A stretch of DNA of 64,000 nucleotides from Stigmatella aurantiaca (lineage in GTDB: Bacteria > Myxococcota > Myxococcia > Myxococcales > Myxococcaceae): contig NZ_FOAP01000024.1 of assembly GCF_900109545.1 (NCBI RefSeq), positions 62,001 to 126,000 on the forward strand, in the 5' to 3' direction. Below are positions 52,501-61,727 of the stretch, piece after piece. The notes under the pieces were generated by a model, which saw only the letters and a program-made list of their open reading frames with translations, had not been told where the DNA came from and made no database searches. Numbering within the stretch: position 1 is the stretch's first letter; each line of letters starts with the position of its first letter. The translations under genes were made by a program, and so were the position numbers.

Positions 52501-52941
52501 GTGAGACGCTCGGAACGCCACATGCCCTGGAGCCTCCACCGGCCGCGCCTGCTGGCGCTGCCGCTCGTGGTGCTCTGCATGCTGGCGTACCTGGGCAGCG
52601 TGGCCCACTTCGCCCTCGTCCAGCACACCCTGTGCCCGGAACACGGCGAGATGGTCCACGCCGGTGAGGAGGGAAGCCATGCCCGGCTCGGGCCGGTGCA
52701 GGAGTCCTTCGATGACTCCCGCGTGGCCTCCTCGGCCGGGGAGGCCACGGTCTCCCACGGCTCCGAGGCCCACTGCGCGCACGCCTTCTTCCGCCGCGAG
52801 CCGCTGCCGCCCGCCGGTGAAGTCCTCCTGCTCTCGGAAGCGCCTGCCCCTTCGGGGCCGGTGTCCGTGCGGGCGCAGGTGCAATCGGAGCCCGTGGCCC
52901 GGCTCCGGGTTGCCCCCAAGTCGTCTCCTCCTCAGTCCTGA
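52501..52941 (+). CDS. Small His/Cys-rich membrane protein, paralogue of the 61305-61727 product
   Basis: A 146-residue protein with one N-terminal membrane helix (about residues 17-34), then a His/Cys motif: H36, H42, C45, H48, H53 (VQHTLCPEHGEMVH). A second cluster, SEAHCAHAFF, lies near residues 88-97. It ends RVAPKSSPPQS. The minus-strand gene at 61305-61727 has the same plan (H-x5-H-x2-C-x2-H, late Cys/His cluster, LPP, and a LAPKSSPP ending), so the two are paralogues flanking the Znu-like transporter region. A role in metal binding at the membrane is inferred; I recognise no named family, although DUF2946-like proteins are similar in style. The GTG at 52501 has AGGAA eleven bases upstream; an ATG at 52522 is possible. 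Confidence 0.65.
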   Translation: MRRSERHMPWSLHRPRLLALPLVVLCMLAYLGSVAHFALVQHTLCPEHGEMVHAGEEGSHARLGPVQESFDDSRVASSAGEATVSHGSEAHCAHAFFRREPLPPAGEVLLLSEAPAPSGPVSVRAQVQSEPVARLRVAPKSSPPQS

Positions 52942-53214
52942 CGTCCCTGGAGCGCGTCCGTGACGGCCCTGCGTGGGCTGTGCGTGCGGGCTGTCGAGGG
53001 TGTGCGTCCCCGAGGGGCCCTGAGCGCCTCTGGCGGTCTGCGCACCGTGCTTCACCCTCCTGGACGTAACGCTCCCCCTGCGCGCGGGAAGACCCTCCTC
53101 GCCGCGGGCCCCTGCCTTCATGCCCCCCGCTTGCGCTCCGTGTCCTGCCGCCGAAGGCCAGGGCGCCCGAGGGCATTCGTCTGCCGTACGCCGTACTCAC
53201 CCGTGGAGTCACAC

Positions 53215-53715
53215 ATGAACAGGAAGCTGTTGTCCGCCGTGCTGCTGTCCACCTCGATCCTCTTCAGCGCCGGTTGCGGCGACGACGAGGAGGAGACCGA
53301 GAGCCTCGACGCCGAGGGATGCGCGCACCTCCAGAAGGGCCCCTCCGCGCCCATCACCGCCACCGCCGCGGCCTCGGGCGCTCCGGCGGTGAACACGGAT
53401 CACAAGCGCTACGACATCTCCCTCATCGACGTGACGGGCGGCAAGGGCGGCAGCGTCACCTTCGCGGTGGCGGAGGAGGGCGACTACCTCTTCTTCATCA
53501 ACGAGGACGTCCCGATGTCCATCCAGACCATCAATGGCGTGGCCATCCAGCCCGAGGAGCTGGTGAAGAGCTCCACCGAGTGCTCGGACATCAAGGGCCG
53601 CTACACGGTGGACCTGGGCGTGGGCACTCACGTGCTCACCTTCGGGCCCACCACGAAGACGTCCGTCTCGCTCGTTGCCGAGCACGGCGCGCACGAGCAC
53701 GACCACGAGCACTGA
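53215..53715 (+). CDS. Lipoprotein with His-rich C-terminal tail
   Basis: A 166-residue lipoprotein: signal peptide MNRKLLSAVLLSTSILFSAGC with lipidated Cys21, an acidic stretch (DDEEETE), then a compact beta-rich domain (about residues 60-150: YDISLIDVTGGKGGSVTF, EGDYLFFINEDVPM, GTHVLTFGP). The last eleven residues contain five His (EHGAHEHDHEH), a typical divalent metal-binding tail. With the Znu-like operon nearby, a periplasmic or outer-membrane zinc capture role is plausible. It is preceded by 273 bases without a gene, which include a GTACG/CGTAC inverted repeat. GGAG is seven bases before the ATG. No named family was recognised. Confidence 0.75.
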   Translation: MNRKLLSAVLLSTSILFSAGCGDDEEETESLDAEGCAHLQKGPSAPITATAAASGAPAVNTDHKRYDISLIDVTGGKGGSVTFAVAEEGDYLFFINEDVPMSIQTINGVAIQPEELVKSSTECSDIKGRYTVDLGVGTHVLTFGPTTKTSVSLVAEHGAHEHDHEH

Positions 53716-53813
53716 GCTTCATCCCGGGGCAGGGGGCCTCGTGGGCCTCCTGTCCCGCTTTCCGGAGCCAGGGAAGCCTGGCTCCTTTTCCCCGAAGTCC
53801 CAGGAGAGACAGC

Positions 53814-59918: not shown

Positions 59919-59942
59919 CGGAAGGCTCCGGGAGAAAAGGGG

Positions 59943-61238
59943 TCAGAAGGCGTGGGCGCCGTGGGTGCCCATCACCACTTCGAAGGCGAGAAAGGCGGAG
60001 TAGCCGGGCTCGTCGCGCCAGCCGGCACGGTCCGTGGCCGCCTGCAGGCGCAGCCGGGAGAACTCGGTGGGCCAGAAGGTGAGGTTGGCGGAGATGCGCT
60101 GGCGCGTGGCATCCCACTCGGGATCCAACGGGTCGGCGGCCACCTGTCCGTCCTGGCCGCGCGCGGCCGTGCCGAACTCGTAGCGCGCGTTGGTGGCCCA
60201 CCGCTGGGCGAAGCGCCAGTGGAACTGGGCATAGCCGCCCCAGTCCCCGAGCAGGTCCTCGGGAACCTGCCGGCGCCGGTAGAGCACCTCCGCCTGCAAG
60301 GCGAGCACGGTAGGATCGTTGCCCTGCACCTCGCGGTACTTCATATAGAAGTCCGTGCCGAAGACGTCGCTGCGGTTGCGGTGGCCCGTGGCGTTGGGGC
60401 CCGTCACCGCCGACAGGCCCCACAGCACGGACAGCGCATCCGAGACGGGGAAGAACTGCTTCAGCGCCCCGGTGAACTGGAAGTCGAACGGGGACACCAC
60501 GCGGCTCTGGGTGGCACCGAAGAAGCTGCGCGCGGTGGACGCGCCGTTGGCATCGGTGACCGAGCCCAGCACTTCCACGTACCAGGGCAGGGGGGCCAGC
60601 CACGAGAGCTCCAGCCCCAGCCCGCGGTTGCCCTCGCCGCCGAAGACGCGGCTGAACACGAAGGGCTGATCCACGAAGTCCCACGCGTGGGGGTGGGTGT
60701 TGTTGATCCGCCCGAAGCGGGTGAGGAACTGGCCGGCGCGCACTTGGAGGTTGGCCGGCAGGTCCAACGTGCTGGCGTAGGCCTCTTCGATCTCCACGCC
60801 GAACTGGCTGAAGACGATGTTGCCGTTGAAGCGGAAGTACGGGTCCACCACGCTGCCGATGGACAGCTCCAGCTGCTGCAGGGTGAACCCATTGGTGGAC
60901 GGGTCATGCCCGCCGCCCTGGAGCGGCTCCTTGTCGGTGAAGCCCGCGAGCGCCACATCCAGGATGAAGCTCATGTCGAGCCACGCGTTGGACAGGGCGC
61001 GGGGCACGGGCAGCGGCGCATTGCCGCCCGGGGCGGCCCCGGAGGACGCATCCGGGGGGGAGGCCGCCTGGTCCTTGCCCACGGCGGCTTCGATCTCCGC
61101 CAGCTCCTCCGGGCTCAGCCCGGCGCCGCTGCCGGGCTCGGAAGGGGGGGACTGCGCCGCCGCCGGAAGAGCCGGCAGGACGAGCGCGCAGACAACGAGA
61201 ACAGCCATGCCGGAGAACCGGCGTGAAGAAGGGGACAC
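59943..61238 (-). CDS. Outer-membrane beta-barrel of the metal-uptake operon
   Basis: A 431-residue protein with a signal peptide (about residues 1-28), a Pro/Ser-rich segment, then a porin-like beta-barrel from about residue 85. Alternating strands include FTLQQLELSIGSVVDPYFRF, LQVRAGQFLTRFGRINNTHP, GLGLELSWLAP, YAQFHWRFAQRWATNARYEFG and FLAFEVVMGTHGAHAF. No TonB box or plug is seen, so it is an outer-membrane porin-like protein and not a TonB receptor. It directly precedes the ZnuA-like gene (24 bases) and may pass metal or a complex across the outer membrane. The GTG at 61238 has GGAG upstream; a later ATG (MAVLVVCALV, 61208) is possible. Confidence 0.8.
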   Translation of the reverse strand: MSPSSRRFSGMAVLVVCALVLPALPAAAQSPPSEPGSGAGLSPEELAEIEAAVGKDQAASPPDASSGAAPGGNAPLPVPRALSNAWLDMSFILDVALAGFTDKEPLQGGGHDPSTNGFTLQQLELSIGSVVDPYFRFNGNIVFSQFGVEIEEAYASTLDLPANLQVRAGQFLTRFGRINNTHPHAWDFVDQPFVFSRVFGGEGNRGLGLELSWLAPLPWYVEVLGSVTDANGASTARSFFGATQSRVVSPFDFQFTGALKQFFPVSDALSVLWGLSAVTGPNATGHRNRSDVFGTDFYMKYREVQGNDPTVLALQAEVLYRRRQVPEDLLGDWGGYAQFHWRFAQRWATNARYEFGTAARGQDGQVAADPLDPEWDATRQRISANLTFWPTEFSRLRLQAATDRAGWRDEPGYSAFLAFEVVMGTHGAHAF

Positions 61239-61304
61239 CCTTGGACTCCTCGGAACCCGGCACCCGGCACTGGGGCGCCAACCACGGTCAACCGCTTCGG
61301 GACG

Positions 61305-61727
61305 CTAGGCGCGTGCCGGGGGCGATGACTTGGGGGCGAGGGCGAGGATGGGAAGCGAGACGATGGGCTGCGGGGGCGCGGTGGCCAGGAGGCTCACGCG
61401 CAGGAAGGCCGTGAGCGCCCACACCGCCTCGGGCGGGAGCAGCTCCTGGCCCATCCCGGCCGTCAGCACCGGGCACGCTTCGTGGGTGAGCCGCGAGGCG
61501 TCCAGGCCCTCGTTCAGCCGCGAGGCGGAGAGCATCGGCGTGTGCGTGGCGAACTGGGACACCCTTTGTCCCATGCCGCGCACCGTCTCCTCGAAGGCCT
61601 GGTGCTCCGCGCAGAAGCGGTGCGCATGCTCCTCGGAGTGCCCGAGCGCGCCCAGCAGCGGCAACAACCACAGCACGGCGAGCACCGTCGCGGTGGAGCG
61701 TCGAAGGCTGGAGGCTCGGGTGAACAT
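61305..61727 (-). CDS. Small His/Cys-rich membrane protein heading the Znu-like operon
   Basis: A 140-residue protein with an N-terminal hydrophobic segment (about residues 13-28, VLAVLWLLPLLGALG). A His/Cys motif follows: H30, H34, H36, C39, H42 (HSEEHAHRFCAEH). A later THEACP site lies near residue 82, then ELLPPEAVW and an ending LALAPKSSPPARA. This is the paralogue of the product at 52501-52941. It is the first gene of the minus-strand operon, 66 bases before the beta-barrel gene. The likely role is metal binding or sensing at the inner membrane; it is not a known family to me. The promoter upstream has a perfect TTGACA box. Confidence 0.65.
   Translation of the reverse strand: MFTRASSLRRSTATVLAVLWLLPLLGALGHSEEHAHRFCAEHQAFEETVRGMGQRVSQFATHTPMLSASRLNEGLDASRLTHEACPVLTAGMGQELLPPEAVWALTAFLRVSLLATAPPQPIVSLPILALAPKSSPPARA

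Follow-up and report, generated by a model that had tools for sequence, protein, structure and literature searches.

Comparison With Known Nascent-Chain Metal Sensors

Nascent-chain metal control of genes is known so far from only a few copper cases. CruR of Bordetella pertussis (DUF2946, PF11162) heads a copper-uptake operon, in which copper sensed by a CXXC motif relieves arrest at RAPP and Rho then ends transcription; its 45-residue spacing is conserved, a 5-residue insertion impairs the copper response, and the Rho site of cruR is a C-rich, G-poor region (PMC9426467). The arrest of CruR in vitro places two Pro codons in the P and A sites (PMC12992588). CutF of Rhodobacter capsulatus has the same 45-residue spacing, and copper was proposed to lengthen its pause, opening a stem-loop at the Shine-Dalgarno (SD) sequence (PMC9973294). 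Here, we describe two small His/Cys proteins of Stigmatella aurantiaca, encoded in a 64,000-nucleotide (nt) stretch of contig NZ_FOAP01000024.1 (positions 62,001 to 126,000; hereafter the window) from a 9.4-Mb genome. They are named miniA, the product of 52501–52941 on the plus strand, and miniB, the product of 61305–61727 on the minus strand. Both are probably cis-acting leader proteins that sense zinc as nascent chains, rather than membrane buffers.

The mini-proteins are like CruR in having a signal, a metal motif, a fixed linker of about 45 residues, a stop-adjacent Pro-Pro, a place at the head of a metal-uptake operon and a C-rich 3′ end. However, CruR is associated with copper operons, CxxC and RAPP, whereas the mini-proteins have zinc-type operons, HxxC, APKxSPP and an extra N-terminal H..HxxCxEH. 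CutF is likewise an exported leader with a metal motif, a 45-residue spacing, a C-terminal Pro motif and a stem-loop beside the downstream SD, but it differs in responding to copper, in its CxxxC and in positive control of a detoxification enzyme; the sequence comparison was made with DUF2946 relatives and found no homology. The RAPP-type arrest peptides SecM, ApdA and ApdP are also small exported or membrane proteins whose arrest motif, Pro-Pro or Gly-Pro, lies close to the C-terminus (PMC12992588, PMC10987492), but they monitor Sec/YidC and keep an Arg in the motif, whereas the mini-proteins have a preceding Lys and no conserved Arg. The Zur-controlled zinc-starvation operons (ZnuABC, COG0523/ZigA and C-minus ribosomal proteins) are equal in gene content, and the mini-proteins add a leader open reading frame (ORF) to them. 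The known control of zinc-starvation operons is transcriptional, by Zur. No zinc-responsive leader of this kind was found in the literature searched, although the mini-proteins may be present, unrecognised, in the supplementary lists of PMC9973294.

Membership of the mini-proteins in DUF2946 was ruled out by Pfam scan, hidden Markov model search and hhalign. None of 51 mini members matched the DUF2946 Pfam profile even at an E value of 5, no DUF2946 match over the cut-off was found in 40 genomes of the order (Myxococcales), and CXXC is absent from the mini-protein alignment, which has one invariant Cys with His instead. pMOL30 gave no DUF2946 match. In a comparison set of 30 DUF2946-type proteins, most of them taken from a single order of Pseudomonadota, 13 have CxxC at residues 53/50 counted from the last Pro and 29 have the first Cys within 50–55. 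The mini-proteins and DUF2946 have a common 53-residue ruler, and the question of what sits at that distance from the peptidyl transferase centre is a physical one that can be tested. By these testable features the mini-proteins appear to resemble CruR and CutF in working, yet they lie outside DUF2946 by the tests made.

Paralogy and Distribution of the Mini-Proteins

The initial annotation of this DNA had described two homologous His/Cys mini-proteins without a named family. Both ORFs were present, and BLASTP aligned miniA with miniB across H..HxxCxEH at an E value of 0.002. Against a profile built from miniB-type relatives, miniA of the window scored 39.4 bits, or 22.1 bits once its final 14 residues were removed, and the best of 317 shuffles reached 8.1 bits. 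Since this tail-less score stands beside a BLASTP alignment over the N-terminal region, the paralogy does not depend on the tail alone. The ratio of nonsynonymous to synonymous substitution rates (dN/dS) between close relatives was mostly 0.1–0.7 in pairwise comparisons for both proteins. miniA and miniB evolve as proteins and are real, selected, homologous genes. Of the layout initially ascribed to them, the hydrophobic N-terminus, H..HxxCxEH, the second His/Cys site and the terminal APKSSPP were confirmed, but 'LPP' was only loosely conserved. The lack of a named family also held: neither protein matched an entry in Pfam or NCBIfam, none of 51 aligned relatives had a convincing Pfam match, and a search for a related solved structure found none. 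The sequence surrounding the GTG start of miniA at 52501 (GACGTGAGC in relatives) is conserved.

Mini members were found by profile search in 110 of 195 Myxococcota genomes, and in genomes of the order miniA and miniB are generally separated by some 10 kb, as they are in the window. A DNA pattern, HxxC-N135-APKxSPP, was also run over a genome contig collection and matched 105 stretches, 80 of which were listed. Among the matches listed, 64 of 81 are ORFs that reach a stop in 12 codons or fewer, although L206 among them resembles a chance match, and the remaining 17 have inner stops or long tails. Nearly all pattern-found ORFs carry an upstream H..C.(E)HG-like site, which is absent from the pattern itself. 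Genuine matches include records labelled Planctomycetota and Sumerlaeota, which are metagenome-assembled genomes whose labels can be wrong. A contig labelled Comamonas sp. KCTC 72670 (L189, BNCN01000003.1) has a miniB–znu operon nearly identical to that of Myxococcus and is probably mislabelled or contaminated.

A Stop-Adjacent Proline Motif at a Fixed Distance From the Second Metal Site

In miniB numbering, the invariant alignment columns are H30, H36, C85, P132 and P137, and the near-invariant columns are C39, H42, L128, A131, K133, S135 and P136. The C-terminal PKxSPP was present in 87 of 88 members and APKxSPP in 86, and RAPP was not seen near the C-terminus of the mini-proteins. SPP is followed by 1–9 residues before the stop (2–3 in 77 members); these are variable in kind and number, and residue x is variable in kind. 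The gap from the second conserved Cys to APK was 45 residues in 72 of 86 members (range, 43–47; standard deviation, 0.51), which places this Cys at residue 53 counted from the last Pro, while the gap between the two conserved Cys was 40–52 (standard deviation, 2.12). Among non-redundant pairs with linkers 20–40% identical, the Cys2–APK length was equal in 63%, compared with 12% for the other linker. The length of the linker is constant while its sequence drifts, which suggests a ruler rather than a fold. The pattern fixes the spacing of 53, and the pattern-found set was therefore excluded as ruler evidence.

The Ser codon of SPP was TCC or AGC in 4 of 68 cases, compared with 38 of 89 control SPP sites, a difference whose p-value is inflated by relatedness. 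This avoidance is seen at the level of nucleotides and falls precisely on the putative site of arrest (52912–52932, 61317–61337 and relatives). An apparent bias of the first Pro codon (few CCC) was dropped, as it is general for Pro-Pro in these genomes, and the Ser codon bias was the only one to withstand the control.

The initial annotation had called the mini-proteins membrane metal buffers or sensors. The sensing role was supported, but the membrane buffer was not, because the invariant features (the stop-adjacent APKxSPP, the 53-residue spacing and the operon-first place) typify a cis-acting nascent-chain leader and not a product that is stored. The related possibility that the completed proteins work in trans, buffering zinc in an exported or membrane-anchored form or passing it to ZnuA as chaperones, with their operon place reflecting shared function, would agree with the conserved His/Cys sites, the export signal, the zinc-uptake neighbours and the dN/dS below 1. 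We nevertheless consider it unlikely: the strictest constraint falls on the stop-adjacent motif and the spacing rather than on any fold, the residues that follow SPP differ in kind and number, the mini gene occupies the operon-head position, and AlphaFold gave no confident domain. Its confidence was limited to the signal helix (residues 2–31), with a mean predicted local distance difference test score of 69, and every aligned member has a hydrophobic N-terminal segment, a putative export signal. The low confidence outside this helix fits a transient chain.

Operon Associations and the Sensed Metal

Among the 88 homology-found members, 43 precede porin/ZnuABC genes, 31 a His-tailed lipoprotein cluster, nine COG0523 and three TonB receptors. 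The 42 pattern-found members from other lineages comprise 18 before porin/ZnuABC, 12 before TonB receptors, two before COG0523, five without a recognised downstream gene and five with too little DNA. Three TonB receptors and one COG0523 case in this survey were assigned by eye. The mini gene was the first gene, on the same strand, of metal operons with zinc-type genes downstream in 86 of 88 homology-found members and 32 of 37 testable pattern-found members; homologues lying mostly away from metal genes, the outcome that would have counted against the initial annotation, were not encountered. In the window, miniB heads the minus-strand transporter operon (in the order miniB, porin, ZnuA, lipoprotein, ATPase, permease) and the plus-strand miniA group converges on it, both as first described.

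The initial proposal that both groups answer the same metal signal was supported, and gene association points to zinc. In COG0523-type operons, the order is mini, L33 and GTPase, with a Cys-free L33, and S14 is near in one locus. Cys-free L33, S14 and ZigA are markers of zinc starvation. The GTPase of locus L088 scores above the NCBIfam threshold for ZigA, a zinc metallochaperone, and COG0523 subsets have been linked to zinc (PMC2770081). Loci L086 and L107 link the miniA cluster to COG0523, as they carry the small Cys-free protein and/or the relative of the 54201–54806 protein between the mini gene and the GTPase. The nearest solved structure to the ZnuA-family protein of the window is Escherichia coli ZnuA (2ogw), and the closest structures are zinc proteins. 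The sensed metal is most likely zinc, judging from the Cys-free L33, the ZigA equivalog, the COG0523 partners and the ZnuA-like structures.

A leader with the same mechanism could instead sense something other than zinc, namely copper or manganese, or the state of export or redox. Copper is the metal to which CruR and CutF respond, manganese is a possible substrate of ABC-3 systems, and the lipoprotein of the znu operon, with its CHNGHCHRDDG, is reminiscent of the copper-related MbnP proteins. We also consider this alternative unlikely, since Cys-free L33, S14 and the ZigA equivalog among the linked genes mark zinc starvation and the binding protein is closest to ZnuA of E. coli and other zinc proteins. 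The lipoprotein (58152–58997) is kept in most relatives.

Some members depart from these arrangements. Locus L107 has two minis in one operon (3403–3807 and 5172–5708, in the order mini, MbnP-like, mini, unknown, COG0523), and the second lacks an in-frame APKxSPP tail, possibly through a frameshift. Members in L094 (6187–6777), L162, L175 and L185 precede genes that are not evidently zinc-related (MerC-like, unknown, SPFH-like lipoprotein and His-containing lipoprotein). In the pattern match L229, the mini gene precedes a cation diffusion facilitator and then COG0523, an efflux-type partner unlike those of the uptake operons.

Proposed Mechanism and RNA Features

Cis-acting nascent-chain control of the mini-headed operons appears well supported by analogy with the copper leaders, and we infer arrest at SPP, zinc as the ligand, release of the arrest by zinc, and an output through Rho or the SD. 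A nascent mini chain with its N-terminal export signal would pause once the Pro-Pro of APKxSPP occupies the P and A sites, 2–3 codons 5′ of the stop. During the pause, the second His/Cys site, 53 residues off, would be beyond the tunnel and near the periplasmic side if the chain is in SecYEG, and the N-terminal site would already be outside. At low zinc, the arrest would persist and the downstream zinc genes would be on; the stalled ribosome, with its leading edge at the stop codon, would cover the C-rich 3′ end of the leader, blocking Rho and/or freeing the porin SD beside a hairpin. Zinc on the His/Cys site would end the arrest by folding or pulling, the leader would be completed and then exported or degraded, and the operon would be off.

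Several RNA features at the end of miniB and before the porin gene bear on such an output. In 30 relatives, the hairpin had 95.7% of cells paired and a covariation of 0.325, compared with 0.167 ± 0.019 when shuffled and at most 0.106 when slid, and it ends about 7–10 nt 5′ of the invariant GGAG. When the leader was masked to its stop, the predicted SD accessibility rose from 0.19 to 0.35 (up in 18 of 25 cases, down in none). In the last 90 nt of miniB, C minus G was 0.235, compared with 0.013 in control windows, and reached at least 0.2 in 69% versus 4% of controls; this C-richness follows partly from the amino acids of miniB. No Rfam match above noise was obtained, and a riboswitch identity was rejected on this basis. 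That the hairpin itself regulates, as a riboswitch or protein-binding element with an incidental ORF, is highly improbable despite its strong covariation beside the SD, since it is small, lacks a conserved loop and an Rfam match, and was seen for the miniB–porin set only, whereas the protein features occur in all operon types.

Several points weigh against the nascent-chain leader as proposed. Shuffling the coding end alone gives an SD accessibility of 0.24 versus 0.19, so the masking effect is weak and counts little. The C-rich end is less marked in miniA (C minus G, 0.103), and the regulatory output may differ between miniA and miniB because the C-rich bubble is clear in miniB and not in miniA. 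APKxSPP, the putative arrest motif, is without the Arg of RAPP, and hhalign of the mini-proteins against DUF2946 gave a probability of 2.8%, aligned over the Pro-Pro tail only, with no homology detected. The direction of the response is unreadable from anatomy, as metal strengthens the effect in CutF and relieves it in CruR. Zinc specificity is deduced from the associated genes.

If the leader reading is true, a zinc counterpart that has an arrest motif of its own would make nascent-chain metal sensing general, would give a second class of arrest peptide with the same separation between metal site and Pro-Pro, and would extend zinc control across a whole phylum by a layer beyond Zur. In a bolder version, which we find possible but would not favor, the APKxSPP proteins would have evolved independently as arrest peptides in Myxococcota and adjacent phyla, sensing zinc during translation and controlling a large part of the zinc-starvation response (uptake, Cys-free ribosomal proteins, ZigA and TonB receptors). 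Their 53-residue ruler would be convergent with that of DUF2946, and they might replace Zur at the znu promoter.

Features of the Window and Candidate Operators

Table 1. Annotated features of the miniA and miniB groups, in positions of the window.
Feature	Position	Strand	Basis or occurrence
Palindrome-like operator GCAACTcggATTC upstream of miniA, putative Zur site	52469..52481	+	Inferred
miniA, probable leader ORF, 146 aa, GTG start	52501..52941	+	Homologues in 75/145 genomes of the order
miniA N-terminal His/Cys site, H..H..C.EHGE..H	52606..52659	+	Alignment: H, H invariant; C, H near-invariant
miniA second site, HGSEAHCAH; Cys is residue 53 back from last Pro	52756..52782	+	Alignment, spacing
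miniA C-terminal APKSSPP, putative arrest motif, stop 2 residues on	52912..52932	+	Motif count
Lipoprotein with C-terminal HEHDHEH	53215..53715	+	Neighbourhood: after miniA in 31/31 miniA loci of the family
Small Cys-free protein	53811..54191	+	Neighbourhood: also behind a mini in the COG0523 operon of locus L086
Unknown protein	54201..54806	+	Neighbourhood: also between mini and COG0523 in loci L107 and L086
ABC-3 permease, ZnuB/AztB-like	56500..57372	-	Pfam, NCBIfam
ABC ATPase, top NCBIfam match AztA, below cut-off	57353..58165	-	NCBIfam
Lipoprotein with CHNGHCHRDDG (SLCHNGHCHRDDG)	58152..58997	-	No Pfam match
ZnuA-family metal-binding protein	59001..59918	-	PF01297, 1e-48
Outer-membrane porin-like protein	59943..61238	-	Weak BBP2 match, below cut-off
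Shine-Dalgarno GAGGAG of porin gene	61246..61251	-	Alignment: GGAG invariant in 30 relatives
Conserved mRNA hairpin between miniB and porin gene	61259..61279	-	Covariation
miniB, probable leader ORF, 140 aa, ATG start at 61727	61305..61727	-	Homologues in 64/145 genomes of the order
miniB C-terminal APKSSPP, putative arrest motif, stop 3 residues on	61317..61337	-	Motif count
miniB second site, HEAC; Cys is residue 53 back from last Pro	61473..61484	-	Alignment, spacing
miniB N-terminal site HSEEHAHRFCAEH	61602..61640	-	Alignment
Promoter-like TTGACA-N16-TTAGAG upstream of miniB, short 5′ leader	61751..61778	-	By eye; conserved in most miniB relatives of the family

The miniB promoters have TTGACA-N16-17-TAGAG-like elements in common; their leader is short, and no palindrome stands out clearly. 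A GCAACTnAGTTGC-like palindrome is common to the miniA, COG0523 and some TonB-type promoters, and in the genome of the window its best copies precede an MbnP-like gene and the genes of two proteins related to the His-tailed lipoprotein. A scan of this genome for the operator, allowing two mismatches, gave 493 matches compared with 604 in the control, and showed no enrichment. That the palindrome is a Zur site, and that these genes form a Zur regulon, is put forward as a suggestion from the few best sites, because the genome-wide operator count was not above the control. Palindromes like ATGCAACTTGATTGCGTTTGTA (52460–52485; also L264, L269 and L258 near position 1500) are possible myxobacterial Zur operators. 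If the Zur operator reading is right, the znu operon would be leader-dependent and the other operons would be under both layers of control.

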